Assembly: GCA_964036045.1 (NCBI GenBank)
Contig: OZ038392.1
Coordinates: forward strand, 17,939,612-18,003,611
Reading direction: 5' to 3'
DNA from: Eutreptiella sp. 'Long Island Sound 2002'
Lineage: Eukaryota > Euglenozoa > Euglenophyceae > Eutreptiales > Eutreptiaceae
Length of the DNA: 64,000 nt
Shown here: positions 12,772-49,228 of the stretch, piece after piece
Layout of the letters: every line of letters begins with the position of its first letter
Numbering within the stretch: the stretch's first letter is position 1
The notes under the pieces: model-generated
Told to the model about the DNA's origin: nothing
What the model saw: the letters and a program-made list of their open reading frames with translations, nothing else
The model's database searches: none
Made by a program: the position numbers and the translations under genes

Positions 12772-13037
12772 TTTTCAGCTTGCGGCGATGCCCAGGACAG
12801 CACTACCTCGGGGGAGACATAGGCTGTCCCTTTCAGGACTATGGCCTTGTCTGAATCCCGTGGCATCGTATCGCCAAATGATCACAGTCAGCAGTGACCA
12901 CTTTATGGCAAATGTATGTTATTATCTGGTGGTCATCCCCATCTCAGAGGGTACCACTCTATTTTACCCTCTCCACAAGAGTAGCGCACACACCATCACT
13001 TCAGAAACGCCTTTCATACCGGTTACACGCACACCCA

Positions 13038-13078
13038 CTGTCAAGGCAGGGTCAGAACTGGTGATGCATCAGCCTTGA
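13038..13078. repeat. 41-bp hairpin repeat, left copy beside the TIR transposon
   Basis: Begins CTGTCAAGGCAGGGTCAG and ends CAGCCTTGA, so its ends can pair (TCAAGGC...GCCTTGA). It matches 19774-19814 in direct orientation with four mismatches. It is preceded by ACACGCACACCCACT and followed by a second copy of the same 15 bases, which abuts the left end of the transposon; the host locus was therefore a short tandem repeat before insertion. Confidence 0.8.
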
Positions 13079-13095
13079 ACACACGCACACCCACT

Positions 13096-13122
13096 CCCTT
13101 GGAACCCGTTTTGCCCATGTAG
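13096..13122. repeat. Left terminal inverted repeat
   Basis: 27 bp starting CCCTTGGAACCCG; pairs with 19747-19773 at 25 of 27 positions (mismatches at positions 5 and 23). A subterminal cluster of TGTGCAA/TTGCACA motifs begins 13 bp inside it. Confidence 0.85.
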
Positions 13123-13130
13123 ATGGCGGC

Positions 13131-13600
13131 ACTAGTGTGCAACCCCTGTGATGAAGTGTGACATAGGCCACTTGCACACCCCTTGCACACCCAACCCAAA
13201 CTTTCATTTCACCCTCTGTTTTGGTGGTTTTTGGGTGCCACCGAATATCCCATGGCATATTCCATTAGTGTACTATGACCCAAACCTCTCACATGCCCCA
13301 AAAGTGTGTCCCATACCAATGTAACACCCCCCCAAAAAATTCCCAAATGCGGGGGTTGTGCAACCGCCCCCTTGCACAACCAACCCCTTGGACATGCCAT
13401 CCTAACCAAAGGGACCTTGCTTTCACGGTATCCTTGTAATGAATAGGTTGTAGAGAGAGGTGAACCATGTTTTTTACCATCACACACCACAATATTTCAC
13501 ATTAAAACCGCTTCTTGTCTACCCCCATTGGTGTGTGCAACCCCCCAATTTCACCGGTTGCCCTTGTGCAACCGTGTGCAACCGTGTGCAACCACCATGC
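13131..13600. repeat. Left subterminal TGTGCAA/TTGCACA cluster
   Basis: Three groups of the heptamer in both orientations: 13131-13196 (TGTGCAA, then CTTGCACACCCCTTGCACAC), 13362-13385 and 13533-13595, where GTGTGCAACC is repeated back to back. This region is the 3' flank of the dioxygenase gene. Clustered short motifs just inside the inverted repeats are typical transposase-binding sites in several DNA-transposon superfamilies; that role is inferred here. No coding sequence is evident between 13197 and 13718. Confidence 0.65.
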
Positions 13601-13718
13601 TACGCGCGGTGCGCGCCGTAGTAGAAAAAAAGAAGAATCCATTCAATGCGAGCACATGTGGACAATGCACTACAAATCACACATAATACAAGCAAAGACG
13701 CATCCTCCATCATTGGAA

Positions 13719-14336
13719 TCACATGTCATCACCACAATGGAACCCTATTTCAAGGAGTCCTTGTCGCACCACGGGCGTCACGCGTGCCCACGATGCACTC
13801 GTGTAGCATACAATAGCATAGCGTTCCCCACGCCAACGCGTAGGTCCATGCAAATGATATGCATTGAAGAGGACGCCGGCTCTTGCATCGACCAAGCATC
13901 CCCATACGAGTCACTCCCCCCAATGTGCCCATGCACGGGCCTTGACTTCCCCCCCACCCAAATAACCCCTCGTGAAAAGGTAACCCCCATCGAAATCACC
14001 AATGGTGATTTCGCCGGTGAGAGCACAATCGTCGTGGCCATGAGTATGAAGGTTCATGGGGGCACTCCCCGCGACATGCACAAGAGCAATGCTTGTGTAG
14101 GACAAATGGGGGAGGTGTCGTCGCACAAAATTATTTATACATCGCACCAACGGCTCCATTTTGGAGGTCCGTGCGGAAATTACAATCTCCTTGCAAAAGC
14201 TTGGAAATGCCTTAACGGCCCCAAGGAGGAGCCTCCGATAGTGAGTGCCATGTCTCTCAATGGTCTCCCAACCCCTTGCATGACGTAGCTTTTGAAGGGG
14301 GTGTCGGCTAGTCATTGCGGAGGTGGCGAGCTCCAT
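13719..14336 (-). pseudogene. 2-oxoglutarate/Fe(II) dioxygenase domain, TET/JBP-like, with an internal TGA
   Basis: Minus-strand frame that reads as the double-stranded beta-helix core of a 2OG/Fe(II) dioxygenase. It runs: LSYTSIALV, then LHTHGHDD at the iron-binding position (about 14060-14036), GEITIGDFDGGYLFT, then GVLFNAYHLHGP (distal histidine) and RWRGERYAIVCYTSASW with the 2OG-binding arginine. The order and spacing follow the algal/TET-JBP type (YTSIQ..., HxD, GDYxGGEL, H...GERxSIVxYT, from memory). Two faults: one TGA at 13911-13913 splits the frame, and the HxD triad reads H-T-H unless the register shifts to HDD. Members of this family oxidise modified bases, chiefly 5-methylcytosine or thymine. 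Probably inactive. Its link to the upstream acidic exon (14312-15180) needs a frame change or an intron. Confidence 0.6.
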
Positions 14337-15180
14337 AGCTTTTGCGTTGCGTCAAAACCCTCCTTGTTCGGCGTGTTCGCCTTGAATGCCTCATCGCTCT
14401 TCCCCTCTTCCGCGACGGCCACACTTGTGTCACTTGGGGTGGCGGGCTTGTCATTGACATCCTTCGTGGGCTTTGCCTCTCCTTGCTCTCCCTCTTGCAT
14501 GGGTTCATCCTCTTCCTTTGTGCCTTCCTTTGCGTCGATACACACCATTTCTTCATCGGCCTTGGTTGGGGACTCCCCTTCGTCCATTGTTTGCAGGTCA
14601 CGGTCACCGTCACCATTGGGCTCCATCACACCTTCGCCGGCAACACTGGACACGGCAATGCCATCCCCATCGGGTTCGTCGCCACCACCCTGGGCCTCGG
14701 CATCCGGCACCGTCTCTTTTTCTTTTTCCTCAGTGGCTTCCACCACTTTGTCATTGTCCTCGGTGGCTTCCGCCACTTTGTCATTGTCCTCATTGGCTAC
14801 CGCCACTTCCGCATTGTCCTCCTTGTCAACGCCCTTGTCCTCGTGCCCCTCGTTCATCTTTTTGAGTGCTTGCACCGCGTCGTCTTCGTTTGTAAATGAG
14901 GTCTTTCCCGGGACGACGCATACGGACCACATGACGTCCGCCGCCACCTCCTCATCATCTTCCCATTGCGGTGGGATTCGGACCAACTCTTGTCCCTTCT
15001 TCGGTTTCTTGTCGCCTTTTTGAGGTTGGCTTTTGCCGCCGACGGCGAGACGGTAGCCACCATTCGGTCCTTCCAACAAGCACCATCGTACACAACAACC
15101 GGGCGGAAGGTCGAACTTCCTGCACGCCTCCGCACGCTTGTCCGCGGCCTCCTTCCGCCGTTGCCTCGCGACGTCTTACG
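14312..15180 (-). CDS. Acidic Glu/Asp-rich exon upstream of the dioxygenase domain
   Basis: Open minus-strand frame of about 290 codons. It starts with a basic helix and a small globular part (KFDLPPGCCVRWCLLEGPNG, then VVPGKTSFTNEDD, about 15130-14900) and continues as a very acidic region with repeated EDNDKVVEATE-like units (about 14840-14730), ending PPPQ and a stop at 14312. The 5' end is placed after a possible 3' splice site (TTCGTAAG, about 15187), because TGTGCAA-rich non-coding DNA lies just before it. Predicted to be disordered. Most likely the middle of the dioxygenase gene; a separate protein is possible. No function assigned to the globular part. Confidence 0.45.
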
Positions 15181-15316
15181 AAGGTAAGATGTGCAACCGG
15201 TGTGCAAGTGTGTGCAACCGCGCGAAGGTGAGTGCTTGCACAAGTTGCACAAGGGTTGCACACTAGTTGCACAAGCTATGTAACATGGAATGCGAGTAAA
15301 CACGACGGTGTCACAC
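15181..15316 (-). other. Probable intron with TGTGCAA/TTGCACA motifs
   Basis: Begins with a good donor (GAG|GTGTGA at 15316) and contains at least seven TGTGCAA or TTGCACA heptamers between 15188 and 15286. The 3' splice site is less clear (near 15187), and the phases of the flanking frames do not join perfectly, so the exact end is uncertain. Confidence 0.5.
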
Positions 15317-16255
15317 CTCCGCGGCGGATGTGGCCTTTTCGGGTGCGGCCGGCTCAGTTGCATGCGGTGTGCCATGGTCACTTGCTTCATTTGGGCTCTC
15401 CTCTTCTTTTGGATCTTGTTTCAGGCCCTCTTGCGGTTGTGGTACGCTCGCCTTTGCGCTTTTCTTCTTCTTTGGCGCGTTCTGTTGTATGCTCTTGCCT
15501 CCATCTCCCTTCTTTTTCTTCGTGGCGGGCTTCTCCTCGTATGCCTCACCTCCGGCCGTCGTATCGCTATCCGATTCCACCGCAAGTCTCTTCCGTTTGC
15601 TCGAGTTTGCCCCACGCCCGTCTTTCTTCTTCTTGGTCTTCTTCGTGTCGTTGGCCACACGCTCCTTCAATGCGTGTTGGGCCTTGAGCAACATCATCTT
15701 CGGTGAGACGTGGGACGCTTTTTGGCTTCCTCCTTGCGGAACGGACGGTGGCCGGGGGGGTGCGGGCTTCTCTTGCTTCTCCATCTTCATTGGCTTGTGT
15801 TCCGTAGGGGGTGCCCAATCACTCTCATCCACAATGGGGTTGCCCAACTCACTATCGTTCTCAAACTTTTCCTCGAGCTTCATTGCCAAATCCAATGGAA
15901 ACTCCGTTGCGGAAGGGAGGTGAGGCGCAGCCTTGTCCACCCGGACCCGTTGTTGCGGCGTTGCAAAATCGAATGGAAACTCACTTGGGGAAGGGAGGTG
16001 AGGCGCGGCCTTCTCCGACCGGATCCGTGGTTGCGGTTTCGTCCCTTGATCCGGGCTTCCCACGCTCCCGTCCAACTCCCGTAGAGCGGCCTTCATATCT
16101 TTTTTCCACTTCTACCTAAATTCCTCCACCTTTCTTGGATCCATGGTGAGCTGCCATTCGTCAATGGGGATCGGCGGCCACACTCCACTCACGATCACAC
16201 CGGGGCCGTGCTTGTCGCAAACGAACATGGCGGTCGGCACGTCCGTCGCGGTGAG
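15317..16255 (-). pseudogene. Lys-rich N-terminal exon of the dioxygenase gene, with one TAG
   Basis: Starts after a likely acceptor (CCCCTTAAAG at 16256) with LTATDVPTAMFVCDKHGPGV and IVSGVWPPIPIDEWQLTMDP, a compact region that looks folded. An in-frame TAG at 16112-16114 interrupts (EEFR*KWKKDMKAAL) and the frame then stays open to the donor at 15316. The remainder contains two similar units (EKAAPHLPSPSEFPFDFA and DKAAPHLPSATEFPLDLA, about 16000 and 15900) and then a Lys/Glu/Pro-rich region with several possible nuclear localisation signals (KKTKKKK, SSKRKR, KKKKSAK). A nuclear, DNA-associated protein fits. The TAG implies a dead copy, or recoding if the transposon is active. Confidence 0.5.
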
Positions 16256-16546
16256 CTTTAAGGGGCGGTTGCACAGGTGCAAGGTGTGCAAGGGTGTGGT
16301 TGCACAACACCTCCGCGTTTACAAACACCATAGCCAAAATGAACGGATTTATGTGTGGGACCGTACATGGGGCATCCGATGCATGTCCAATAAAGGAATC
16401 AATGCAAAACATCACCCTAGTTGCACCATGGGCCGCTTACCCACCCGTCCCACAAACATTGACACGTGGAGTGTGTGCACGACGGCACTTGCACACCCTT
16501 GCACAGCGGTTGCACACCTTCTCAACTGGGGTGTACGTTGGCGCCA
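16256..16546 (-). other. Intergenic or intronic DNA with TGTGCAA motifs
   Basis: No sustained frame. Two heptamer groups, 16267-16305 and 16487-16515, mirror those in the other introns of the element. Either the 5' flank of the dioxygenase gene or an intron joining it to the unknown gene upstream. Confidence 0.5.
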
Positions 16547-17402
16547 TCACATTGAGAGGACTCGGTGTTGTTGGCGGTGCATTGGAGTGTGCCACGGCGC
16601 CGACGGCTTTCGCGGTGCGCCGATTGCCTCCCGAACTTGTTGCCCCCGCCTCCAATAATGATGGGGGTGACGCACCATATGCCCCATCGTTGTGAACGTC
16701 ATATACTTCTTCCAAAATGCCTCAGACATCGTGGAAAAAAAACTGAGGGCCATGCCCATGTCCGTGGCCCCCCGCACGGGCTCTTGGGTTGCCGCCACTG
16801 ACCCACTTGGCTGCAATGGCCTCTCCCAACCAAGCCTTTTGCCTCACCATGAATAAGGCATACAAGGCGGCCTCACTGAGCACCATGCATGCTTCTGCGT
16901 AGCCTTGGAGGCCAATTCTCAAGATTTCCCAATCACTCCACCGCGTGGCGGTGAGGGCGGAGCCTTGCCACGGATACGTGATAATTCCCAAGGGGTCGAC
17001 TTGCCGGCACTTCTTGAGCCAATGAGACAATGCGCGCCTATACAAATATTTTGGCGTTACATCGCGAAGCCAACGCCATTCCAAACTGTCATCGGCAAGC
17101 GGGGCGTCCATGTGACAGCTATGGTGCACCAACAACTCGCTTTTACATGGGAAGTGGGATTGCAATCGAGGCGGGATGGTTTGCTCGGTTGGTGAGTTGC
17201 TCGCTTGCTCATCAATTTCCGGCTTCTTCGGCGTTGTCAAACCACTACTAGTCGACGCTTGACTCCCGCTACCTTGACTCCCGCTCCCACTTGCTTGTAC
17301 GGGTCTACTTGGCGCTCCACTTGACACTCCACTACCACTCCCGCTCCCACTTGCTTGTAGGAGTTGTAATAATTGTCCGAGTTGTTGGAATTGTGGATCC
17401 AT
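16547..17402 (-). CDS. Unknown transposon-encoded protein (probably two exons)
   Basis: Met at 17402 (MDPQFQQLGQLLQLL), 23 bases after a strong 3' splice site (CATATTTCTTTCAG), so an intron probably lies in the 5' leader. Residues 15-60 are Gly/Ser repeats; residues 100-200 look helical and globular (KYLYRRALSHWLKKCRQVDP, then WEILRIGLQGYAEACMVLSE). The simple frame stops at 16722. A better model splices out 16721-16802 (donor TGG|GTCAGT, T-rich tract, acceptor TCTGAG); this keeps phase 0 and continues AFWKKYMTFTTMGHMV to a stop at 16547, about 257 residues. The alternative is a T8 frameshift. No family recognised. Its position between transposase-like and dioxygenase genes suggests a role in the element. 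Confidence 0.5.
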
Positions 17403-17424
17403 GGTCGCCCATGCGCTACTGAAA

Positions 17425-17607
17425 GAAATATGGGAAGAGAGTGTGCAACGTGCGGTTGCACAATGCAACAACCCACTTGCACACGTTGCACACCACTTGC
17501 ACAAGACTTGCACACGCTCCGCGTCCGGCGTACGACACACATGCACATGTCCAAACACATTGCGGTCCAATCGGTTACTAGATGACATGCAACATGAAGA
17601 GACACAC
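17425..17607 (-). other. TGTGCAA-rich spacer ending in a 3' splice site
   Basis: Between the stop of the transposase-like gene (17608) and the acceptor CATATTTCTTTCAG (17425). It holds about seven TGTGCAA/TTGCACA heptamers at 17442-17515. Likely a 5'-leader intron of the next gene, or a long intron linking the two genes; the frames do not join in phase, so separate genes are preferred. Confidence 0.5.
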
Positions 17608-19489
17608 CTAATCAGCATTTGCACGTTGCCATCGAGGCATCTCCTTGGCGAGGAAGAGACGTTCCAGCGCTTGCGTGACGAGGCGCGTGTCGCGTTCCGT
17701 TGGAGTGCCTTTCCCTCCTCCCCTAGCCGAAGAGCACAAAAAATGGTCCTTGAAGAGGTATTTTAGCGACTCGACAATGTCGCCGCCAAACTTACCGCCA
17801 CCCCACAGATGCAAATTTTTCAGAACCTCGGGAGCATCAAATTGTAGCCATAACAAATATGGCGATCGAATGGTAGGACAAATTGTTCGTTGGAACTTCT
17901 TCGCGATGGATTTACAATTGAGGGCGTTCGAATTGAACTCCCAACTTTGTATTGCCGTAACTAAAGAAGCCATTTGTACAACAACATCAATGACATGGTT
18001 TGGAAGCTTCATGGCCTTGCCAATATGACGCCAGTTTGCCAACAAGAGCCATGTCTCTTCCCCATCCGGAGAGGCATGGCCCTTGAGACTAATTTTGGTC
18101 TTGGCACAATTGAGGTGATCTTGAACACGATCCCTAGTGGCCGGCGGAAGGTGCTTGCACTTCTTCCTAATGAATTTGGTGAGGTAGTCACCAACCCGAA
18201 TAACAAGATGCAATATGCACATAACCACAAATTTGAACCGTTCCTCTATATGCAACAAGGGTTCACTCACACATCCTTTGGCGGTGGTACAATCCAACCC
18301 CTTGTTATGAAGTTTATATAATTTTTTGTCACTCTTGGGTGAACGCCGCCACTTTCGGTCCTCCCACTTTCCCTTGACCGCGCCACTCGTCGCGTAAGTA
18401 TAAATACTCCCAATGCGAAAATAGCTTGAAATTCCTAGCACTTTACGGAGCCATGGGGAGTCACCATCCAACATGACTCGAGCACGACACCATTTTTCAC
18501 GAATGAGGATCCATCCGATATTTATAATACTTTGGATTGCCTCCAAAGTCTTTGAAAAAATTGCACGTAGAGCATCGATGTCGTGCTCACTTGTGAGGGC
18601 GACATCGATGGTCCAATTATAAGCTAGGGTGCGCGCCTTCTGACCATGGTTGGCAAACCCAATGGCCAATTGCACCCAGGGGCGAGATCCACAAGGGAAT
18701 CCGTCATTCCGAACGATCAAAACATATGGTCGTTCCCCATCCAAAAGCGGGAATGACATTGTATCAAGTATATCGTCCTGAGTTGAGATATACTTAAAAA
18801 ACTCATCAAGATCCCAACGTACACCTACCTTCCCATTGTAATCGCTTGGGACTAGGATTTGCTTGCTCCCAAGCTCCCGCCAAGCAATCTTGAAAGCCTC
18901 AAACGATGGGAAGGGGTGCTTGCAATGAGCGGGGAGGCGCCCCTTCCCATCATTGCGAAGCTTGGATACCCAACAGATAAGGTTCTTGTACCTAGAAAGG
19001 GAGAGGCATATATTGGTAGTTGCACAATTGCAACCGTGTGCAAACGGTGCAATAAACTACTTGCACACATGTTTGCACAAAGCGTAACGTTGCCATCATC
19101 GCACTATTTTTATGAATGTGGTGTTATACGATGTCCTAGTGTGCAAGTTAGAGTATGTAGGTATCCCGAATGGAGTGAATGACCACAGTAGACGATGTAT
19201 GAGAATGATATGGCTTCGAAAGTGTGCAAGTGGTCACTTGCACACCACAAGGAGCGGTTGCACAATGCATCAATAACGCAAAAAAGCGACATGGCAAGAA
19301 ACATCACCTTTTTTTTGGCATTTCAAGCTCCAAAACGAGACGGACAGCCTCGGTAGGTGTGTAAACCTGCCGAATGGCGTCCTTTGCGCGTTTCTTGTAT
19401 CGTTTTTGCTTATTGATGCGTGCATTGAGGCGATCGAATAGGGCGGTACCCGGTGCCGTCGAGGTAAATAGTCCCACAAGGTCATCCAT
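17608..19489 (-). CDS. Transposase-like protein, two exons (19489-19308, 18991-17608)
   Basis: Exon 1 (from MDDLVGLFTSTAPGTALFDR) ends AAAAAAAG|GTGATG. Exon 2 begins after CTCTCCCTTTCTAG at 18992. Joined, they stay in frame for 521 residues with a split Arg codon (...MPKKR-YKNLICWVSKL). The core has a pattern expected of an RNase H-fold DDE enzyme: strand plus acid VLIVRNDGFPCG (Asp about 157), VMLDGDSPWL (Asp about 236) and helix ILHLVIRVGDYLTKF (Asp about 319). Basic stretches lie between. The N-terminal 60 residues are basic and helical, possibly DNA-binding. The frame is intact, unlike the dioxygenase gene. Position next to the right inverted repeat supports the role of transposase. Not matched to a named superfamily; the catalytic assignments are inference. 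Confidence 0.6.
18992..19307 (-). other. Intron 1 of the transposase-like gene
   Basis: GT at 19307-19306 and AG at 18993-18992, with a pyrimidine-rich tract before the AG. It contains two heptamer clusters, 19018-19080 and 19223-19265. Removing it joins two open frames in phase, the strongest evidence for spliceosomal introns in this window. Confidence 0.8.
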
Positions 19490-19644
19490 CAAGTCCTCGC
19501 TGCTAAAACTACCTTAGGTAGTTCTAATGAACTGGGAAATAGCATTTCCTTGCAAAACCATTGCAAATCTGGCAAATGGCTAGTAAAGCTGTTCTGAAAT
19601 TTAAGATGCGGCAACGACGGCGGCAGTCGCGACGGCGGCGCCAG

Positions 19645-19750
19645 CGCGGTTGCACAGGGATTGCACTGTGCAACTGCAGTGCAATTCTGTGCAACTGGCA
19701 GAAATTTAGTGCAACTGCGTGCAAACATCAATTTTTCTGTGCAACTCTAC
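19645..19750. repeat. Right subterminal TGTGCAA/TTGCACA cluster
   Basis: At least six copies of GTGCAA or TTGCAC-type motifs within 100 bp (GGTTGCACAGG, CTGTGCAACTGC, TCTGTGCAACTGG, TAGTGCAACTGCG, TCTGTGCAACTC), ending at the right inverted repeat. They mirror the cluster inside the left end. Confidence 0.75.
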
Positions 19751-19773
19751 CTGGGCAAAACGGGTTCCTAGGG
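19747..19773. repeat. Right terminal inverted repeat
   Basis: CTACCTGGGCAAAACGGGTT... ending GGG; inverted match to 13096-13122 at 25 of 27 positions. It directly abuts the host hairpin repeat. Confidence 0.85.
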
Positions 19774-19814
19774 CTGTCAAGGCAGGGTCAGAGCTCGCGA
19801 TGCATCTGCCTTGA
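19774..19814. repeat. 41-bp hairpin repeat, right copy
   Basis: CTGTCAAGGCAGGGTCAG...ATGCATCTGCCTTGA with perfect 9-bp complementary ends (TCAAGGCAG / CTGCCTTGA). Direct repeat of 13038-13078. Confidence 0.8.
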
Positions 19815-26675: not shown

Positions 26676-29600
26676 TCAGTTGGGAGGGCAGTTGCGCAGA
26701 GGGGCTGGCACGGGAAGGTACACGGACACCAGGGGATTAGTGTGGCGAGAGGGAGGAGGTAGCGCAGGGTACCCTGACATCTCTGGGGCTGGTGAAGTTG
26801 CCCTGTCAATATGTGGGTTTTGGAATGGTGACGATGTCCTATGAGAAAGAGGGAGCGAGGTGGGCGGTTGGGGTTCACTGACTACGACAAACTCATTTGC
26901 TTCGCTTTCGCTTGTTAAGTTGGTAGCTTCCGAGGTACAAGTGTGGGCAGGGGAGGCCTCAGAGGTGGAGTCCCAATCTCTGATGCCATCGCCGTTGTCG
27001 CTGCTGCTGGCGCTGATGCTGGATGGCGGCGGAGAGGAGTGCGCGCTTTGTTTTTCTGGCGCCTCTTCCTGCGGATCTTGGTCCAGAGCTCTTTGTCCAT
27101 GTCCGGCGGTCTGGATTCGAGGCCTGAAATCAGTGTGGATCCGGTGGTTCGGGGTCGGGTGGCTTTGGAGGTCGCTTGGGGGGGGGGGCTGGAAGAAATG
27201 AGGGAGAGTGAGCTGTTTTTTGTTGGCAGTGCCTGTGGATGGGGGCGCGGAGCTTTTGCGCTTTGTACCCGACCTTGCGTGGGTTTTGGTCCTGGACCTA
27301 TTTGGTTGGTGCGATGCTCTGCATGGGCGGGGGGCTTTCAGCACGGATACGATTGATTTGTTGTTGGTCAGGGCGTGCTGTAGGGGTGTGGTCGTGGTGT
27401 GTGCTGTCTCGAAGGGGTCGAAATATTGGGAGATGGGGGTAGCGATTGTTTGTGGTTGCCGGGGTGGTAGGGGTGGTTGTGCTTGAAGTGTTTTGGGTCG
27501 TTTTTTTAGGGCTCTCAACACTTGTGGGGGGGGGGGGGGGCGTCAGCATGGTGGGCTGACCACAGTAGAGGACTGAATGGAATGTCTCTATGGACGGGGA
27601 ACAGCTCGGCAAATACAGACGACAGGGCTCTGCGGGATGCACTGGACAGTGAGGTGCGAGCCGTGTTGTCTGACGGAGTTCCTGTAGAATGACATTAGAG
27701 GTGTGCTCAGAGTTTACCGCCTGCGACAAAGGAGACATTGAAAGTGCAGGTTCTGGTTGGCGATCAGGGGGGAAGGGAAGGGCACAGGGCTGGGGGGCGT
27801 ATGGGTATAAAAATGCATTGAAGTTGGGGGGGAGGCTATGAAAATGGTTTTGAGTGTGTTCAGGGACGGAAAGAGCTGTTTGTCGTGCCGTCCACAAGGT
27901 ACTGGTTCGTGTTTGTGGCAGGAAAATGGATGATATTTTGGGTTGGCTGGGCCTCGTTGTGTGCGAAGGCTCTTGTGCAGTTGATTGTTTAGCAAGAGGG
28001 TGTTTGGTTTTGGGCTTTTTCCTATTTGACACTGCTGTTGGCAGTGGCTCTTCCGCTGGGTACGTGACTGGTGGGGGGTTGATTCCGTTCGGTGAGGTAC
28101 TGAATGTCGAGAAGGGGCCTGTCCTCCTGATGACTGTTGTGGGTTGCACGGTGGCCCATGTGTGGTGGTCAACCATGGGGTTTCGGTAGAGCCATTTGAA
28201 GGACTCACGAACGGCAGTAGTAAGGTGGGAGCGCCGCTTTTTGAGAGCTTGATAGTATTGATTGTAGAAGTCTGGGGAGGGATATGACTCCTTTAGGTGG
28301 TGATATGGCGTAAGACGGATGAGTGTTTTGATGAAATTTCGTTGTTCCCCCTTGCTGGCGTTGGCAAACCAAGATTTAACGAGATGGGCAAAGGTGTGGC
28401 CCCAGGCATCGAAATGCTGCTGGCATAACTCGGTAGCTCTGGAGCAGAACGCTATGATTGACTGGGGTTCCATGGGGTGCGGTTCTGTACACAAATGGCA
28501 GAGAAAGAGAGATAGCTGATCGTAACTACGGTAACCGGGTACGTATACTAGGCCAGCAGACCATTTAAAAGCCAGGATGCTAAGCGACGATGCATGTTGC
28601 GACCAATGGTAGCTGTCCCGCACCCTTAGTGACGTGTGTTTGTGGTGAGGGAGGAGAGTATGAAGGTGGGAGTGAGGAATTTCGGATATGATGGGTATGT
28701 GGTTGATGGTCAGGGTATGAGGAGGGGTGGCTGGGAGCAAGTTGGTGGCGTTGTGGTGGCAAAAGGCAGCCCATTTAGCTAGCCGGTCAGCTAGTTCGTT
28801 GCCCAACAAGCCCACATGAGCTTTGATCCATACAAGGGAGAAAAGGTGCCGGATGTTGTGTTGGGTGAGGAAATCGTAGAAGGCAGCCCTCCACGTTCCG
28901 TGGGTTGTTTTAGAGGGGTGGGGTCGATATGTGGTAAGGTCCAGTGCATTTATGGTGTCCACCACTTCCTTGTTGTCTGAGAAGATGAGGACTGTATGCG
29001 ACCCCCAATCGTGGCGACAGAGAAAACTTAGAAGGGCCCAGAATTCCGCGTCGCTGGAGGTGGCATAGGGAGAGGGAATGGCTAGTGCGTACCCGGGGTA
29101 CCAAAGTTCTAGAGAGCCATGAACCACCCAGAAGGCAGACCCTCGTTTATTGGCTTTGGCCGACCAATCCAGGTAGACCACCGAGTCGAAATGAAGTTTG
29201 ATGTTGTCTGCCGCTTCGTTGCAGTTCCAAAAACGGAGGTCATTTTCGCATATCTGGGGGGGGGGTTGATTGTGAGAGAAAAAGAATCCATCTGGTTGGG
29301 GGACGGGGGAGGACAGTTGGTTCCGGGGTTGTGGTGTGTCGTCGGCTAAGGTCGGGGGTTTGTACAGGGGGGGGCAGAGAGAGGTGTGGGTGAAAAAATT
29401 GTTTGGGGTTGCGGTTGTTTGGTGCATGATCCAATCATCGGAGTCTTCGATGTCGAGCTCAGGATCAAAGAATTGGAGGGACGCGTATGTTTCATGGTTG
29501 GCTGTGACTGTTGCGAGGAAAAAGTCTTTTTCGTCCTCGGTCTGGAGCAGGGCTTGTACCTGGTCACCTATTTGAAGGGATTTTACTTCACAGGGGTTCC

Positions 29601-30360
29601 ACGGGGGGCCAAATCCGTGTACCTTGATTTCCAGGGCGTAGCATGCCTCAACAAGAGTGTCCAGAAAAGGGGAGGGGTTTTGGCCGAGGAGGTCTTCTCG
29701 CAATGAGGGGTATACATCGGCCGGACGTTCTTTGTTGAGGTGTCTGAGACCAGCATAAAACGTGGTTTTGTGGAAGTAGAGTTGCAGAGAGCGCAAGCCT
29801 AATCCTCCTCTCTTTCGGGAGGAGTAAATGTCTTTCGGGGAGATTTTCGTGCAAAGGGGAGTGGCTTGGCATAGTTCCTTCCAGATGAGTTTTTGGAGGT
29901 GGGTAATATCCCTCTGGGATAGGTTATGGGCAAGGGATCTGTAAGTGAGGATTGGAATCAGTTGGGTGTTGACCAGGAGGATGTATTCACTGAAGGTGAG
30001 GGGAAGGGGGGAGAGGCGGTTGAAAAATCTGGTGGTTTCAGTTTTTAGTAGGGTAAGAAGCTGGAGGGCGGAGTTTTGAGTGAAAATCCATATGCCGAGG
30101 TACTTGTATGCTGCGTGAGGTTGGTTGTTTTTGTCAAAGGTTGTGATGACGGATCCGTCATTTAGGGTTGTTTTGAAGGGGAGTGAGGGGTGTATGGCGT
30201 GGATTTCAGTTTTGTCAACGTTCATGTCAAGTCCGAGTGCTCGGACAGGGCCATTGAAAAACTGGAAAACTTGTTCTGCCTGTTGTTGTGTTTCAACACG
30301 GACCAGGATATCATCCACAAAGGCCCACGCGGCTGCCCACGGAGTATGGAAATCCTCCAA
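26676..30360 (-). pseudogene. LINE-A ORF2, RT motif C through RNase H to C-terminus
   Basis: The 1020-codon frame 30360-27298 begins with the RT catalytic strand AWAFVDDILVRVE (FVDD instead of YADD) and the thumb region (HAAYKYLGIWIF, LSQRDITHLQKLIWKELC). An RNase H domain follows: VYLDWSAKANKRGSAFWV, SSDAEFWALLSFL, LIFSDNKEVVDTI and LVWIKAHVGLLGNELADRLA give Asp, Glu, Asp and the His...Asp end. The rest is Pro/Thr-rich. A long C run (G run at 27527-27541 on the plus strand) shifts the frame; the partner frame 27521-26676 continues with PISQYFDPFETA and NKKQLTLPHFFQPPPPSD. RNase H in a LINE removes RNA during first-strand synthesis. Inactive overall because of lesions upstream. Confidence 0.85.
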
Positions 30361-30363
30361 AAT

Positions 30364-31497
30364 TTAGTTTAGCCTACATAGGACTACGTTAATGCAAAGG
30401 ACAAATAAGAGCGGGGATAAGGGGCATCCTTGTCTGGCCCCACGGTCTAGCCGGTACGAGTTTTTGGTGAATCCTTGTATTCTGGGGAAGTCTTGGGGGT
30501 TGATGTATAGGTGTTTGATGGTGTCAGCTAATTGAGGGGACAACCCCAGATGGGTGAGGGAGGTCCACAAGGCTTCCCTGGGGACAGTGTTGAAAGCTTT
30601 ATTAAAGTCTACGTAGATGTTGTAACCCCCTTTGTGTTTCCACATGTGTTGTTTAACTCTGTAACTGTGGTCCGAGGTCCTTCGGTTTGCAAGACCTCCG
30701 ATTCACGCAGGGTTGATGAGTTTGTGGGTCAGAGAAATGGAGGCTAGGTATGTGGTGATGTGTGACGCTATTAGTTTGTAGACCACTCCTAGGAGGGAAA
30801 TGGGGCGGTAGTTCGTTGGGTTGTCGGCGTCATTTTTTTTGAAAAGTAAGAAAATTTCGGCCTCAGTCCACTCTGCGGGCATGGGTTTGTCAAGAAAATA
30901 GTTACACGCATGGAAAGGAATCTCCAAGATATGGTTGGGGGCAAGGGAAAAAAGGTGTAAATTGCATTTATCCCGCCCTCCTGCTTTGTACAGTTTGGCG
31001 GAGTTTAATTTGGCATTGAGATCCTTCCACTGGATGGGGGGGATTGTTGCATTTGACAGGGAGGGGTCGTGTGGTGTGTGTTTCAGGAACTCCTGAAGTA
31101 CCTCATCCCGGGGTTTGAAGTGTGTATCGCCTCCAAGGGAGTGAAGGAAAGTACTCATGACTTCAGTCATGTCGGCGGCGTTGTTGGTTAGCGTCCGTAT
31201 TGAGGAGTCAGTGTACAAGGCACAAGGGCCTGGGATGGTTGGAGCTAGGGCGTCGGTGGGGGTCCTCTTGAGTTTAATTCCCCTCACCATGTTGCGATGG
31301 AGTTTTTTCGTGTCTGATTTGAGTTGTTGTTGGCTCAGCTCTTCAATGAGTTCATTTATTTTGTTCATTTCCGCGGTGAAAGTAGGAGATGTTGGCAGGG
31401 GCGGGTTGTTGCGCAACTGGTGTAGGTGTTTTTCTTTTGAGGTGGGTTTGTGACCATGTGAAGATGTGATGTTATGGTATGTGTCCAATAGGGCCAA
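30364..31497 (-). pseudogene. LINE-A ORF2, reverse transcriptase motifs 1-B
   Basis: 31497-30703 contains the pre-motif helices and NYRPISLLGVVYKLIASHI (RT motif 2). 30645-30364 contains motif A, YNIYVDFNKAFNTVPREALW, and motif B, GARQGCPLSPLLFVLCINVV. A frame change between 30703 and 30645 removes part of the text, and a stop separates motif B from motif C (30360). Order and spacing are typical of L1-like or other APE LINE RT. Confidence 0.85.
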
Positions 31498-32701
31498 CTG
31501 GACTTTGTTGACGATTCGTATTTTTTGTGTTTCGGGGAGGTGGGGGAAGGTGGGAAGTACTTGTTCTGCCCATGAATCCCATTCTTGTAGCTCGTCTTGA
31601 AAGGATTGTTTTTCTTTGACGGTGAGCTTTCAGAAAACTAGTGGGGGTGAGCTTTGTTTCGTGGTTTCCGGAAGGGGGGGTGTGGTGAGCCTTGCAACAA
31701 CCGGGTGGTGGTCGCTGGTAGTGTCAAATTTCTGAATTGTGCACTCTCGGGGGGTGAGGGTTTCCAAGGTGGCCGGGGTGGTGAAAAGCAAGTCAGGACG
31801 TGTTTCGCTGGGATGTGCGTCTGTCCAGTATCTCGTGAAGGCCTTCTCGAAGGGGTTGAGTGTTCAGAAAACGTCGATAAGTGTTCGTCGGTTGTTTGGG
31901 TCTGGGAGAACGTGGTTAGACCGCCACGGCCATTCGTTTTTCCGTTTCAAGTTTTTTGCATCAAGGTCGTCTTGTAGGATGGCGTTGAAGTCGCCTCTCG
32001 CGACCAGGTGATTTCTGTTGTCCAATCTGATGCCAGTAAAATCAGAGGTATGTACTCGAGAGTCGGTGAGGTAGGTAGGTGCACTCGGTCGTGGAGAGGC
32101 GCCTCATGGTTCCCCCTGGCGTCGCCCCTGTGACGAACAGGAAGAGGCTTCGCGCGTGAAGAGGGGAGGCGGCTTACTTCCCGAGAGTCGGTGAGCTAGG
32201 GGTGTATTGCTGTTTCAATTTTCTTCATTCGAGAGGTGTCGTGTTGGGGAGCGGAAATAAAAATCAATGATATAGGGGGGGTTCCGGGGAGGGAGAGAAG
32301 GACATGGCACGTGAGTCCTTCATCATCTAAATGGGGCATGGGTTGAACGAGTTGGGCTAACCGCGGTGACACAATGATTGGAGCTCCATGTTTTTTCCCC
32401 ACGGGGCCTTGATGTACATGTTTAAAAGCTGCGTTGGATGGTAAGGAATATACAAAAGGGAGTTGTAGGGTTTCATTGACCTCGGTGGCAAAAATGATGC
32501 CAATGCCTTGCTCCAGCAGGCGAAATATTTTTGCGGTGTCATTCTTTTTTTGAAAATTTGCGGTAGCAATTTGGAGGTCGGGGTTTGGGGACGGGGCTGG
32601 ATTTGGTGCTTTGCGCGTGAAAATTTTGTGTTTGGGGAAGGGCGGGGGGTAATGCTGGGAGGCCCTTCATCAGGGCCTTCGGCAGCACGACCTGGATTCA
32701 T
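31498..32701 (-). pseudogene. LINE-A ORF2 start and AP-like endonuclease, interrupted
   Basis: The Met at 32701 (MNPGRAAEGPDEGPPSI) likely starts ORF2. Endonuclease-like text follows in several frames: IATANFQKKNDTAKIFRLL and IGIIFATEVNE (the strand that carries the catalytic Glu, about 32490), GKKHGAPIIVSPRLAQLV, then VARGDFNAILQDDL (about 31995; the conserved GDFN) and TSDHHPVVARL (about 31710; the SDHxPV end). Together these are the landmarks of APE-type endonucleases. A 111-bp fragment of LINE-B with a 14-bp duplication sits inside at 32071-32181. Frameshifts and a TAG (about 32200) show decay. Confidence 0.7.
32057..32195 (-). mobile_element. 111-bp 3' end of LINE-B with 14-bp target duplication
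   Basis: Core 32071-32181 matches 32749-32859, the 3' end of LINE-B, with one mismatch (CGCCTCATGG against CGCCCCATGG). It is flanked by CGAGAGTCGGTGAG at 32057-32070 and 32182-32195. The 3' tail is (CTAC)2-3 on the minus strand. This is a drastically 5'-truncated insertion and independently fixes the LINE-B 3' end. On the minus strand the host text reads LTDSR on both sides. Confidence 0.93.
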
Positions 32702-39712: not shown

Positions 39713-42700
39713 GGTAATGGATGAGACGCTGCATGTGTCTCCTGGCGGTGGGGTCGGTGAGTTGTTCCGCGTGTGTTAGCAGGAGGTGTTTGCGGTGTAC
39801 CATTTGGGCTGCTGCTCTGCGGACCGCTTCTAGCTGGAGGTGTGCTGCTGCTTCCATGGGGCTTTCCGTGTGTTTAGTGAGGTGTCGGTGCAGGGCCTGT
39901 GTCACTGCCCCTCTCATGGTGGCTTCTTTGATCAGGGGGTCCCGGAAGAGGTGTTCGGTGGCCTGGTGTGCGTGGCTGTGGGCTGGCCATCCTTCGTTTT
40001 GCCGCAGGGTTTCCGCCGGGGACCAGCCCACTAGGGTGTCCCTGTCTGTATGGAGGGGGCATTTCTTGAAGTGTTCCCAGGTCCTCCGGGGTGGTGTGGT
40101 CGCATGGGCAACGGGTGTCTTCGTCGGGGACGTGGATGTGCTTGCGGGCGAGCCATCTGGCGACCCTGGTGAGGAAAGGCAGTTGCTCCCTGAGGAGCTG
40201 GATGCGTCGTTTCTGGAGGTGGGCTGGGACGTTTGCTGGGCGGAGCGCTGAGTGGTAGAGGGGGACTTGCAGTCTGTCCTGGAGCTCCTGGATGTGCGCC
40301 CGGCTGTCTGCGTCGCCGAGCACGCGGGCGAGATGTTGGACGGGGTTGGGGTAGTGGTACGCTCTGTCGTGGGAGGAATAGGGGGCGTCCTCTGGTACCC
40401 AGTCCGGGGTCTGATGGGGCTCGGGTACAGGGGGCACGTGTTGGAGGTGTGTGTGGTTGCGGCCGAGGTCAGGGATCTGGAGGGCTGGTAGGTGTGTTGT
40501 GCGCTGGTGTACTGCCTGGTTGTCGACCTTACCATTTCCGTATTGGTGCCTGTGGGACTCTTGTTTCACGATGTGGAGTTGGACGTAGGGGGGAAGGCTG
40601 CGTAGGGCTTTCCAGAGTAGCAGTGCCTGGGTGCCGAGGCTCGTCGCGGTTGCTTTGTGAAGTGGTTGCCTTGCTATGCGGAGGAGCAGGTGCGTGTCGA
40701 CAGTGGCGTCTACCACGAACCAGACCCGGACGATGTGCGGGGAGTGGGCGGGTAGGTGGGCCGCGACCTCGGTGATGGCGTCGGCCATGGCCCCTAGCTC
40801 CCCGTGGGAAGAGGCCCCATAGGTGGTGTGGCCCGTGTGGTGGTCCATGTGGTAGTGTTCCCCGGTGTGGGTTAGTTGCAGGGTGGCCCCCCCGGTGATG
40901 GGCGTGAGGGCGGATTCGCCTGAGGCGTCGGTGAAGAAGAGCCGGTCCGCCGGTGATGGTTGTGGGAGGCGGCATGGGTTCATGGGCAGGTAGGCGTATA
41001 TGGCAAGGCCCGTGGCGAGGTGGGCTACTGGGGTTGTGGGCTGTAGGATGGGGGTGGCGTACACCCCTATTCCTTTGGAGATGATGTGCTTTGCTTGGGG
41101 GGACAGGGCTATGAGTCCCTGCTCCGGCTGTCCTTGTGTGAGGTAGGAGTAGATGTAGTGGAGGATGTAGGCTGTGTCGGGGTTTAGGTCGTGGCATGTG
41201 AGGGTTTGTGTTCGGTGCTCCGGTGTGTGGCAGGAGTGGTGGAGTGGATAGTAGGGGTGCTCGTGTTTGCCCGTTCTGCCTGGCTCGTACATGCTGTAAC
41301 GGATGGCGACCCCTGCCGGGTCGGGGCGGGGGCATGTGGGTGTAGTGGTGAAGAGCCATTTGGGCGCGTGGTCGGGGTTCCATGCTACCGTGGGGTTAGT
41401 GTCGGTGCGGTGGAACCATGGGGCTATCCATGCGTAGGCCTGTGGTGGTAGGTGGGTCGTGGGGTGGGTGTGGTGGCGTGCTATGAGGTGTAGCACGGGC
41501 CATGGTGCGGTTGGTGCCTCGGGGTCACAGGCCCAACATGTGCGTGGCATGCTCTGGGAATCTTGGGGGACCTTTGGTAGGTCTCGGGCGGTCATGTGGT
41601 GTTTCGGTATGCGCCATTTTGCCCCGTGGTGGATGACGGTGGTCTGCGTGGGTTTGGCTTCATTCGGGGCCAGTAGTAGGGTTAGTGGTGGGACTGGGCC
41701 CGTTACTGGGGGGACGGGTTCGTGTTTCGATCCGGTGGGTGCGTAGGGCGGTGTCTCTGGGATGGGTCGCGGGTGTTGCCTTGTGAATTCTCGGTAGGCT
41801 ATGCGCATGTCTTTGCTGCCCGGTAGAGTGTGTCCCGCTGTTCGTGCCGTCTGTGTGAGGTACTGGTGGAAGAGGCGGTGTTGTGGCCATTCGGGAAGCT
41901 GTAGAAAAGGGCTGTGGTGTGCCCCGCTGTGGTGCAGGACCCGCATTTGGGCGAGGGTGACGTTTACTACGGTGATGGAGGCCCCGACAAGGTCTATGGT
42001 GTGGATGGTGCCCTTGGGGTGGTGGTGGAGGTCCCCGCAGAGGACCGCTAGTGGCCCTTTCTCTGGGCACGTGTGGTTGGTGAGTATGGCGTGGTGTGGG
42101 GATGGGAGCAGAAGCTGCAGGTGGTTCCACAGGCGGGTGTTCATGTTGGTGGGCATGCCCGTCTGGTGGAGTACCCAGCGCGGGCATGTGTTGCGGGCCC
42201 GTTGTGCGGCTTGGAGGCGGATGGCGGTGACCTCGCGGACCTCCGGTGAGTGGTTGTGGGTCATGCGGTGAAGGAGGAGGGCGGTGTGTCTGTTATAGGC
42301 CGCTTTCACCTCGTCCCCTATGGCGTCTCCATAGTGGGGCCATGCCGCTCGGATGGCGCGGGTGGGTATGGAGGTGGGCCAGCCCCCGTGTGCTGCCCAT
42401 GCCTTGGTCACGGCGCGTGTGGCCGGCTGGAGGGCGGTGGTGGGGTGTGTTAGGTGGAGTGCTTGGAAGCCTATGGAGGCGTTCAAGACCCCGGTGAGGT
42501 AGTACGCCAGGCTCTGGTGGGACAGGGAGAGGGCCTTGGTGGTCGGGGACGCATATCTGGGGAGATGGGCGAGGTGTGACTGCAACTTGGGAGGGAGGGT
42601 GGCGTCCTCAGGGTTGGCGGCCTGGACTACCCCCAGGTGGGTGGTGGTCGTCACGACTTGCATGGGGGGGCCTTGTGGCCCCAGGGTGGGAGGTGTGGCA

Positions 42701-43194
42701 GACCCCTTGATCATGGCCACTGACTTTGTGGGGTGGACGATGAGGTTGTTGTGGGAGAGGTAGGAGACGGTCACGTCCAGTAAGTCGTTGGCCTGTTGGG
42801 TGACCGTTGGTCCGGGGTCCGGGGCATGGGGGTCGTGTGGGGTGTGCGCGACGGTGAGGTTGGTGTCGTCCGCGAAGCCGACCAGGGGGGAGAGGAGGGG
42901 GTAGGGTGCGTAGGCCGGGTAATCCTGCTCGATTGCGAGGGCCAGGGGGAGCGTCACTAGAAGGTACAGGAAGGGGCCCTCTGCTCCCCCTTGGGGGACC
43001 CCGCTGCCTGGCTCCAGGAAGGGAGTGAGGCCTGCTCCTGTGCGGACCGTGTATTTGCGGGTGCGGATGTAGTCGGAGGTGAAGTTGTAGATGGGGAGGC
43101 CTAGGCGTTTCCACACCGCTTCTAGAAGGAGCCAGGGGGTGTTCGGGAAGGCTCCCTTGACGTCGAGGGAGGCGATGATGAGGTCCACCGGGTC
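39684..43194 (-). pseudogene. LINE-B ORF-I: RT, RNase H and zinc knuckle (5'-truncated, one frameshift)
   Basis: The element starts mid-domain with DPVDLIIASLDVKGAFPNTP (RT motif A). It continues with GSGVPQGGAEGPFLYLLVTL (motif B), VGFADDTNLTVAH (motif C, FADD) and NNLIVHPTKSVAM (motif D). About 450 residues of connection follow, then RNase H: RLFFTDASGESALTPI, SSHGELGAMADAI, VWFVVDATVDTHLL and YGNGKVDNQAVH. A cysteine/histidine finger, CPCDHTTPED...KKCPLH, lies near 40080, where the 1170-codon frame (stop 39874) and the correct frame (stop 39684) part by a single-base shift. Upstream bases 43195-43386 extend the frame but belong to LINE-A. Not mobile by itself because it is truncated. Confidence 0.9.
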
Positions 43195-44160
43195 CGCTGA
43201 CCTCTGCAGGCGTGAAGGGAGTTGAGGGGACCTTGGTATGATGCGATGGTGCCAGAGTACTTTGTCTTGTCCTAGGTTTTGGATGCTTCCTGAGAGGGTT
43301 AGGGCATTGGGAGAGGGAGCAGACAGGGAGAGCAGAAGACGTTTCTTTTCGGTGTGACTGGATCGCTTGTGCATCTCGTCTGCCACCCGGTTCGAGAGGA
43401 GATTTACGGGGGCTCGTGTGCAGTTGCCGTCCCGATGCGCTCCATGTGCGAGAATGGCGCGTGGTCGTCGTCGTGTATAGGAGGTAAATCTGTTGGGACT
43501 CGCCGTTGCCGGGGCACGTCTCCTTGGGTTGCTGGGGACTCGCTTGCGCTTGTCTTCCCTGAGGTGAAAGGGTGCGAGACTTCCGAAGGGTCGTCGTCGC
43601 GCTGAGTATGGTTGTACTGTATGTTAGTTCAAGGACCATTGTGATTAGCTTGAGAGACGGTGGTTGTTGAGGAGACTCGCGGTTGCTTGTCTTTCCCCAT
43701 GTTGGTTGTTTAACGAGGTGGTTGTCTTGCGTGTGTGAGTCATAGGTGTGGATAGCTGGGGTTGGAAGGACCTCTTCGCCTGTGACTGTTCTTGATGATG
43801 TTCTTTGGGCCGAGGCATTCCTATCATGGTGCTCTGGAAACAAGGGGAGTTGCTAGTGAGGGAGGAGGTGGTGCCACAAGTGAGAGGTGGTGGTTGCATT
43901 ATCATGAGACGTAAACGAAGCATTGGAGGACACTAAACACGGGGGGTGGGCAAGAGTTTGTTGTGGGGGCGTGTTCTTGGACGACGCTCCCTGTAGGATG
44001 GCGGAATGGTAGCCGCATGCCGGGGGAAATGCCCCCAAAAATTTCGTTAGAAAATATTTGAAGGATCCTTGGCAAAGTTGTCGGCCCACTGGTTCGCAAG
44101 TTCTTGGGAAGAGAAGCTTTTTTTGGCATTCATGCCCCATTGTCCGGAGTTTCCTAATCA
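43195..44160 (-). other. LINE-A ORF1-ORF2 spacer, interrupted by LINE-B
   Basis: Lies between ORF1 (stop 44161) and the LINE-B insertion. The minus frame 43843 downward is Ser/Thr/Pro-rich with two related blocks (TTTLRKSRTLSPQGRQAQAS and TTTTRHSRTWSASGRQLHTS). No domain seen. Either a spacer or a third, unrecognised coding part of LINE-A. Confidence 0.4.
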
Positions 44161-47243: not shown

Positions 47244-47258
47244 GCCTTTGTAATACCC

Positions 47259-49228
47259 TTGATCAAGAATTGGGCCTCACCGGAAGGAGAGCCTGTCGAT
47301 GAGTTCCTGCATGTACTCGAGGACTCGTTCTCACACGACGAAGTGTGGCCCCAGCCGTACGACCACCTGTACGTCTCGCTTCGGAGCAGACGCTCCGTGG
47401 TGAAGGAACCTGATGCTGACGAACATGCGGAACCAGCCCTCCAATTCGACAGTGAACCCGCCGTCGAGCCAGAGGACCTGGAGCCATTACCATCAAATGC
47501 AACAGCTGTCAAGCCGGAGGACCTGGAGCCAGTACCATCAGACGAGATTCTGGCTGAAGATTCACAGCAAAAAGAGGTACATCTTGATGATGCTGGCAAC
47601 GAGCCAGATATACCTGCCAACACCGACGACCTTGCCGACGTAGGCATGGACTGCCCTCTTCGAGTCACTTTTGGCAAAGAACTTCGATATGCTCCAACCC
47701 TGGCGGAACTGATCCGCTGTCCACGTCACCGAGACGGCACACTAAAATCAGTTTCCTTGCCTAAGGTTGGGCCGAACACGCCGTACCCGTCAAGTCTTAA
47801 AGGTATACACCGCCGAGTGCACCGACACTATCAGTGCAAGGATTTGACTTCGACAGCTGTGTGGGCAGCAGCCTATCGAGAAGACCCACGTACGAGACAC
47901 ATCTACGAAGTCGCGGTTCGAAGCCCTGCGGCACGACACCAACTCCGCGATGCCAAGTTGTCCTTCGATGATGGCAAATTCTTCCATTTGTCGACGATGG
48001 GCAAGCGTGTGCCTGTCCCTCGAACGCTTGTGACCTGGATTGTGGCTCTGTATCACGAGTCGGAGTTCTATGTCCATTCGGCTGTACTTCCAACCATGGC
48101 ACTGATCAAGCGCCACTACGTTTGTTCACATCTCCGACATTACGTTGAGCGGTACATCTTAAGTTGCGATGTGTGTCAAGCGGCGAAGTCACGGCGAGTC
48201 GACACCGCCAGAGTGCCTAGACCATTACCGGTGCCCGACACCAAATGGCATAGTGTGTCCATCGACTGGGTTTCAGGATTGCCGCCGACCACTAGGGGCC
48301 ATGACGCCATCATGACTGTGCTCGACCGATTCTCCAAGTGTGGAATGTTCATCCCTTGCCGCCAAGATATGACAGCCGACGACCTTGTCTACGTGTTCCC
48401 GCGTGAAGTAATTCGACTTAAAGGATACCCTCGACAAATTGTTTCCGATCGAGACAAGCTGTTCGAGTCCCAAGCGTGGAAGGAGTTGGCTCAGCGTTCC
48501 AAGATCCAGATGCCCCAAACAGTAGCCAACAGTCCTGGAGGCGATGGCCTACCGGAGCGCAGAAACCAGTCGATCCTCCAACGCTTGCGTACACACGGCA
48601 TCTTTAGTAACAACGAGTGGGATGCCAACCTTCTGTTCGCCGAGATTCAGTTTAACAACCTGACGTCCAATAGCCTTCGGCTATCCCCGTTCGAGATAGA
48701 TGAGGTACGAACACCCCATTTTCCATTGGACTTTCCCCGAATGACTTCTCATGCACATGAGCCTTCGACCGTCAATGATTACATGCAACGAGCTGAGCGT
48801 ACCTTCGATTCTGTGCGTGCAATGCTTGCCGAGGGACGTCGACGCCAGATGCACGTAGTCCTACAAATGGACCGACACGTTCGAGTGCCTGAAGTGGAAG
48901 AACGATGGTGGGTCTTGGTGCCGGAATATCGACATAAATGGAAACTCGATGTTGTCTGGTGCGGCGCTTACAAAGTCCTCGAGGTACTGAACAAGGGCGA
49001 GAACGTTAAACTGGACATCCCTGCCCTCTTCGATGGATTGCGACTTTTCAATCGAGACAGCATAAAGCCTTACATCCATCGAGAGGGACAGCCAGTTTTG
49101 GAATTCCCGATGCCACCTGTCAAAACCGGGGACTCCCCTCGACTTGTCAAGATCCTGGCTAGACGTCGAGTGGGATCTAAAAAGCGCCGCACGTTCCTGT
49201 ACTGTGGTGAATGGGATGACGACACATG
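47259..49228 (+). CDS. Gypsy integrase (C-terminus displaced by LINE-C)
   Basis: The frame is open from 47259 into LINE-C. An acidic linker with two copies of KPEDLEPVPSD/EPEDLEPLPSN-type sequence (about 47465 and 47510) precedes the integrase zinc finger: LYHESEFYVHS...CDVCQAAKS (about 48048-48190). The catalytic core follows: VSIDWVSGLPPTTRGHDAIM (Asp, about 48258), QIVSDRDKLFESQAWKEL (Asp, about 48447) and PERRNQSILQRL (Glu, about 48555). An SH3-like part and the start of a chromodomain-like tail (LVKILARRRVGSKKRRTFLY) end at 49228, where LINE-C begins. The missing end is preserved in the duplicate at 56030-56587. Integrase inserts the cDNA into the genome. Confidence 0.85.
48744..49228 (+). 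repeat. 484-bp target duplication, left copy
   Basis: Identical over its length by eye to 56030-56514, at a constant offset of 7286. Consists of the end of the gypsy integrase. LINE-C starts immediately after it. Confidence 0.95.

Follow-up and report, generated by a model that had tools for sequence, protein, structure and literature searches.

We analysed a stretch of 64,000 nucleotides of the Eutreptiella sp. 'Long Island Sound 2002' genome (contig OZ038392.1, positions 17,939,612 to 18,003,611; hereafter the window), which holds, at positions 13096 to 19773, a mobile element best explained as a damaged copy of a once autonomous cut-and-paste DNA transposon. The noncoding stretches of this element carry a seven-letter motif repeated in phase with the DNA helix, related lineages of the same genome (S2, S3 and S4; the window copy belongs to S1) carry arrays built from other words, and a conserved UGA is followed in frame by a domain resembling the TET/JBP dioxygenases. 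The overall explanation that we consider probable, if only just, is a RAG1/Transib-like transposon of autonomous origin whose dioxygenase-like domain would be added by readthrough and targeted to the lineage's own arrays. We take this combination as a hint, short of proof, that the element marks its own DNA and thereby evades silencing. The initial annotation of the window, made from the letters alone, had described a transposon combining a transposase-like gene with a TET/JBP-like dioxygenase; both the UGA site and the phased, lineage-specific arrays had escaped it.

Phased arrays and their lineage-specific words

The heptamer TTGCACA occurs 45 times in the window, and 40 of these sites lie within the element, which makes up 10% of it; a third-order Markov model of the element yields a mean of 8.4 sites and a maximum of 18 in 300 runs. 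None of the 40 falls in the 4575 coding bp, and each of the six noncoding gaps holds four to nine, as located by motif map and phase fit (no strand assigned):

13136-13591: nine phased TTGCACA sites, left subterminal
15190-15273: seven phased TTGCACA sites
16269-16516: six phased TTGCACA sites
17442-17514: six phased TTGCACA sites
19020-19264: eight phased TTGCACA sites
19650-19744: four phased TTGCACA sites, right subterminal

Spacing was analysed for the 28 pairs of neighbouring sites at most 42 bp apart. Sites of the same orientation are separated by 9-12, 20, 21 or 31 bp, minus-plus pairs by 14, 15, 15, 15, 24, 25 and 36 bp, and plus-minus pairs by 16, 17 and 17 bp. With period and offset fitted, the 28 pairs fall on a single face of a helix of 10.5 bp per turn (mean cosine 0.914) with an orientation-dependent offset of about 4 bp, a fit that is true of each of the nine clusters. 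Neither of two null models reached this phase, whether in 400 runs on all pairs, in 400 on opposite pairs alone or in 5000 on same-orientation pairs. Seven copies, including that of the window, keep 31-40 sites at mean cosines of 0.913-0.922, though as close relatives they are not independent. Elsewhere in the window, no 7-mer with at least three different bases has ten adjacent pairs (7-mers with fewer were excluded from this control scan). The flanks of neighbouring sites are no more similar than flanks drawn from other clusters, and on this comparison we rejected an origin of the S1 arrays, the only ones it covers, by tandem slippage.

Each lineage has its own prevailing word. The S1 element has 40 TTGCACA, one TTGAACA and one TTGAACC, and S2 has 26 TTGAACA, eight TTGCACA and three TTGAACC. 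The two S3 loci, each read over 4.1 kb, have 11 and 14 TTGAACC, no TTGAACA, and three and zero TTGCACA. An S4 copy (L035) has 23 TTTGAAT, a word absent from the other three lineages, together with seven TTGAACC. In S2, 24 of the 26 sites lie outside the listed coding stretches, and the other two fall in the final part of the reading frame of the second gene. When the period and offset were fixed from S1 and the phase was tested against 2000 nulls per locus (copies of one lineage not being independent), the observed phase was reached by none in S2, by 45 and 2 in the two S3 loci, and by 0, 0, 0, 11 and 0 in five of the seven S4 copies; the remaining two, L038 and L039, have neither the element end nor the UGA site.

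S2 is the lineage best suited to experiments because it is young: among the 87 matches listed for it (L042, L043), 86 show 96-100% identity and 65 are free of stops.

A conserved UGA and the domain behind it

In S1, S2 and S4 the dioxygenase-like domain stands in frame downstream of the acidic part of the third gene, separated from it by a single UGA. The site reads TGACTAG in all 15 S1 copies that hold it (21 examined, the window included) and in the one S2 copy read, and TGACTCG in the five of seven S4 copies that have it, one of which (L041) has an additional TGA just upstream. Of the window's 1848 TGAs, both strands counted, a single one stands directly before CTAG. For human genes, the available part of PMC4359377 derives UGA CUA, preferably with a following G, as the context of high readthrough; S1 and S2 combine this context with a conserved in-frame extension, and the S4 variant reads UGA CUC G.

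Differences at codon positions 1, 2 and 3 after the UGA are 0.417, 0.380 and 0.646 between S1 and S2, 0.433, 0.487 and 0.706 between S1 and S4, and 0.530, 0.465 and 0.703 between S2 and S4. The domain has been under coding constraint between lineages and is conserved at the protein level. TGA is unlikely to have a sense meaning in the host, as it serves as a terminator in S1, S2 and S4, closing the transposase of S2 and S4 and the domain itself of S1 and S2. Judging from the sequence, the conserved UGA with its downstream domain suggests stop-codon readthrough, which would probably give some of the product a dioxygenase-like tail.

The iron motif of the domain is HxH, not HxD or HxE, in the window copy, in S2, in S4 and in 30 of the 34 S1 representatives scorable by the pattern used (49 were examined; 15 were not scorable). 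The C-terminal His and the G-E-R motif are retained in S2 and S4. HxD occurs in one representative, P0039 (10 members), which has lost the GER arginine. Decay is an unlikely cause of HxH, which is common to three lineages, the sole HxD representative being the one without that arginine.

The assignment to TET/JBP is weaker than first claimed. It draws on motif resemblance and on a pairwise shuffling test against one true Tet_JBP protein, which lends tentative support to distant homology. The Tet_JBP profile matched none of the S1, S2 or S4 domains, and comparison with Naegleria TET1 by hhalign and shuffling gave nothing significant. Two fold searches with a poor model of the domain (predicted local distance difference test, pLDDT, 46) returned lipocalin-, avidin- and START-like barrels and no TET, and are uninformative either way. 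The profile and database negatives are weak evidence against TET/JBP because, in a sensitivity control by the same method, a typed mammalian TET fragment matched TET2 and yet missed Naegleria TET1.

Relatives of the domain were not found in viral contigs; prokaryote contigs were not searched for it. A search of the host genome with PF12851 gave, among nine scored candidates, one other protein over the Tet_JBP cut-off (L047, C2034:19150-19750); its contig is 49 kb long, it is different from the domain of the transposon, and it may come from a virus or a contaminant.

The element, its copies and its genes

The borders first proposed, 13096 and 19773, are confirmed, and the inverted repeats, then described as 27 bp long (25/27), extend to 28 nt with 26 of 28 positions paired (93% complementary). 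Their 21-nt core occurs within the window only at the two element ends, and 0 of 100 shuffles contain it. Joined with a single CT, the flanks align gap-free to a neighbouring uninterrupted copy of the target, which bears out both the 2-bp duplication and the empty site, earlier placed at 13031-13049.

13025-13078, plus strand: neighbouring uninterrupted target repeat, the empty-site control (alignment to joined flanks)
13094-13095, no strand: target duplication CT, left copy (comparison with empty site)
13096-13123, plus strand: left terminal inverted repeat (arm pairing, repeat search; terminus shared by 37 of 40 scored matches in the genome)
19746-19773, minus strand: right terminal inverted repeat (arm pairing, repeat search; same terminus in 10 two-ended copies)
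19774-19775, no strand: target duplication CT, right copy (comparison with empty site)

Copies of the element have moved about the host genome. Searching the assembly (2.28 Gb, 2205 contigs) with the left 305 bp of the element gave 255 candidates, 40 of which were scored, the window's own copy among them; base 13096 is the exact start of 37 of these. From 20 further S1 copies that we fetched, the 10 without a second end in the fetched stretch were left out of duplication scoring. All 10 two-ended copies have a 2-bp duplication (CT, TA, TG, TC, TA, CA, CT, AG, AT and AT). The anticipated sharing of ends among copies therefore held and that of CT did not: the duplication is any dinucleotide, because its sequence varies among these copies. 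Five two-ended copies measure 6.5-6.7 kb and the other five are shorter and internally deleted. L010, L013, L014, L024 and L027, which have lost internal sequence but keep both ends and show 2-bp duplications, were perhaps mobilised in trans. Identity is 94-96% among the window copy and six others.

The three minus-strand genes announced in the initial annotation are present:

19308-19489, minus strand: transposase exon 1 (reading frames; splice site inferred from frame)
18989-19307, minus strand: probable GT-AG intron with eight TTGCACA sites (reading frames, motif map)
17608-18988, minus strand: transposase exon 2, with D157, D238 and E467 of the spliced 521-residue protein; RAG1/Transib-like (alignment, fold search)
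16722-17402, minus strand: second gene, stop-shortened in the window copy (reading frames, copy comparison)
15311-16228, minus strand: third gene, N-terminal part with MFV.DKxGPxV domain and basic linker; approximate boundaries (reading frames, S2 comparison)
15176-15310, minus strand: probable third-gene intron with seven TTGCACA sites; approximate boundaries (reading frames, motif map)
14315-15175, minus strand: third gene, acidic part, ending at the UGA (reading frames, S2 comparison)
14312-14314, minus strand: conserved in-frame UGA (UGA CUA G), proposed readthrough site (all 15 copies that hold it; S2, S4)
13719-14311, minus strand: TET/JBP-like dioxygenase domain (HxH), interrupted by a frame break after the UGA and by a stop at 13911-13913 (reading frames, lineage comparison, pairwise test)

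The window copy is damaged by a frame break just after 14312 and by stops at 16112-16114 (third gene), 16722-16724 and 13911-13913; copy L015 has open frames across all these places. The second gene has a relative in S2, a reading frame of 320 residues. S1 and S2 have the same gene order, and S4 shares it in outline.

By its fold, the transposase looks RAG1/Transib-like. We searched with a model of a relative, P0006 (mean pLDDT 50, with 82-93 in eight of the 13 ten-residue blocks from 301 to 430), which shows a DDE fold like that of RAG1/Transib, helices being inserted ahead of the last E. Of the Asp residues proposed initially (about 157, 236 and 319), the first two fit the acidic residues 157 and 238, and the third is E467 rather than residue 319. 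Among 35 transposase sequences examined, 18 were scorable and 17 lacked an anchor; the spacing from the second D to the last E is 230-233 residues in 17 of the 18, and the exception, P0026, has a deletion. Between these two residues the zinc motifs of the RAG1/Transib/CMCT clade are rare (CxxC in 1 of 18, Hx3-4H in 2 of 18, both in none). The 2-bp duplications of the window and of all 10 two-ended copies fall within the clade's 2-5 bp. The clade's usual 5'-CA..TG-3' ends are not seen in S1 (CCC..GGG) or in S2 (CCCTAG; ends CCCTAGTGACCCCTTTTGCACACC, similar to those of S1, with one terminal base different at the right end), and by eye S4 elements have CATG at both ends (CATG..CATG), without an established duplication. 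The S4 ends (copies L035 and L036) thus seem closer to CA..TG than are those of S1.

Relatives of the transposase were found in none of the phage records, viral contigs or prokaryote genome contigs, nor were relatives of the terminal inverted repeats found in viral contigs. An Rfam scan across the window gave no match. By eye only, the long frames at 27298-31629 and 39874-43623 have a reverse-transcriptase- and RNase-H-like look, as of non-long-terminal-repeat (non-LTR) retrotransposons, and a frame at 47244-49661 has the integrase-like look of an LTR retrotransposon.

Competing explanations and known systems

In the explanation that we favour, the third gene would encode a protein with a conserved N-terminal domain, to some of which UGA readthrough would add the C-terminal TET/JBP-like domain. 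An element protein, with the N-terminus of the third gene and the product of the second as candidates, would bind the one-face motif array in each noncoding stretch and carry the dioxygenase-like domain to the element's own DNA, keeping it unmodified and expressed. Motif and proteins would have changed together in each lineage, so that each system acts only on itself, sparing the host and rival lineages. More tentatively, and in our view somewhat short of an even chance, we propose a self-addressed system in which a three-histidine TET-like oxygenase, made in small amounts by readthrough, is brought to phased lineage-specific operator arrays, with words and binder renewed at least three times in one genome.

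Several observations weigh against this explanation. The domain has no significant match in Pfam, PHROGs, PDB sequences or fold searches, an outcome that the initial annotation had itself named as telling against its dioxygenase. The iron-ligand Asp is replaced by His, so the domain may be inactive; the initial idea of a DNA-modifying or demethylating enzyme that escapes silencing keeps its element-borne domain and a likely anti-silencing role, and is weakened in its enzymatic part by the HxH motif. CpG depletion is slight (observed/expected 0.88 within the element and 0.75 in the remainder of the window), giving no sign of heavy CpG methylation to escape. For the extension, the ratio of non-synonymous to synonymous substitution rates within lineages is noisy (0.32-1.72 for ten S4 pairs, 1.95 for one S1 pair), as expected of decaying copies, and present selection is not demonstrated. 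Stops shorten three of five S4 extensions, again as in decaying copies, the S2 extension comes from a single copy, none was seen in the stretches read of S3, and phase support is weak in one S3 locus (45/2000 nulls).

Among the alternatives, a dead enzyme kept as a DNA or chromatin reader, protecting by occupancy, is possible although we would not expect it: the altered iron site is kept in three lineages, as such a reader would allow, but so are, in S2 and S4, the C-terminal His and the G-E-R motif that a mere reader would not need, and some enzymes hold iron by three His. We regard as rather unlikely that the arrays are sites for excision by the transposase or an accessory protein, like the subterminal repeats of CACTA elements, with an unrelated dioxygenase-like domain. 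Transposons usually have lineage-specific ends and binding sites, and the two end gaps hold 13 of the 40 sites; the other 27, however, are internal, in gaps 15176-15310, 16112-16649, 17403-17607 and 18991-19305 at least 0.5 kb from the ends, two of these four gaps being probable introns. The repeats of maize Spm are confined to the element ends.

It is less likely still that the UGA is not read through, whether it is spliced out, bypassed by reinitiation at a start of the domain's own, or decoded as selenocysteine. The genes of the element do seem to have introns, but the frame is maintained across the UGA in three lineages, coding is conserved right up to it in S1 and S2 (TQKLW / TQALW), the seven-nucleotide context in both is one of efficient readthrough, and a codon that ends the S2 and S4 transposases and the S1 and S2 domains is not simply a sense codon. 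Nucleosome positioning, in which the 7-mer would need no specific protein, accounts for a period equal to the helical repeat and is nevertheless very improbable: the repeated unit is a fixed 7-mer, its offset shifts by about 4 bp with orientation, and the word changes from lineage to lineage, all of which indicates a specific protein. A Kyakuja-Dileera-Zisupton (KDZ) transposon carrying its usual TET gene can be practically dismissed: TET/JBP genes are indeed carried by KDZ elements, but the duplications here are of 2 bp against the 8 bp given for Zisupton (available part of PMC12730594), and the transposase fold is RAG1/Transib-like. We therefore reject KDZ membership, as the initial annotation had rightly suspected.

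If the favoured explanation is true, a transposon aims a DNA-oxidising or DNA-reading domain at itself only, in a dose set by translation, and its lineages are kept apart by altering a seven-letter address. Four motifs in four lineages of one genome make this specificity code directly testable, and could yield compact tools for editing the epigenome at an address given by sequence.

For fungi, DNA transposons of many lineages that carry TET genes, non-KDZ ones included, are already published (PMC12730594, Kojima 2025). As far as the available part of that account goes, its TET-bearing CMCT-clade elements (EnSpm, ESTA, Plavaka) share with the present one a RAG1/Transib-related DDE transposase, 2-3-bp duplications and a TET/JBP-type gene, and neither arrays nor readthrough are described for them. 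The Eutreptiella element differs in lacking the C(2)C and H(3-4)H zinc motifs, in its ends (CCC..GGG in S1; CATG..CATG by eye in S4), in having HxH where they have HxD or HxE, in placing its domain after a conserved UGA, and in its phased arrays. KDZ elements, often linked to TET/JBP genes in fungi, differ by the 8-bp duplications of Zisupton. In maize Spm, a CACTA element, activation of the element by its own protein TnpA correlates with DNA demethylation, a likeness to what is proposed here, whereas a dioxygenase is not mentioned for TnpA in the available part of PMC10398659.

Relative to the published accounts examined, and as far as these go, what is new is the arrangement that would allow readthrough, together with the HxH site and the arrays, helix-phased and specific to each lineage. 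The closest functional parallel may be VANDAL/VANC of Arabidopsis, in which, according to the available part of PMC5735166, a family-specific motif in noncoding DNA guides methylation loss. There, as in the lineages described here, a short family-specific motif is dense in noncoding parts, introns included, and is proposed to evolve together with the element's protein. VANDAL has a different transposase, and tandem repeats with motifs in one orientation, in contrast to the two orientations and lack of any sign of tandem slippage seen here; the Eutreptiella element, whose motif binding is putative, has in addition an attached dioxygenase-like domain. By this analogy, the best reading of the combination is that it would work like VANDAL/VANC, as a sequence-addressed anti-silencing system.

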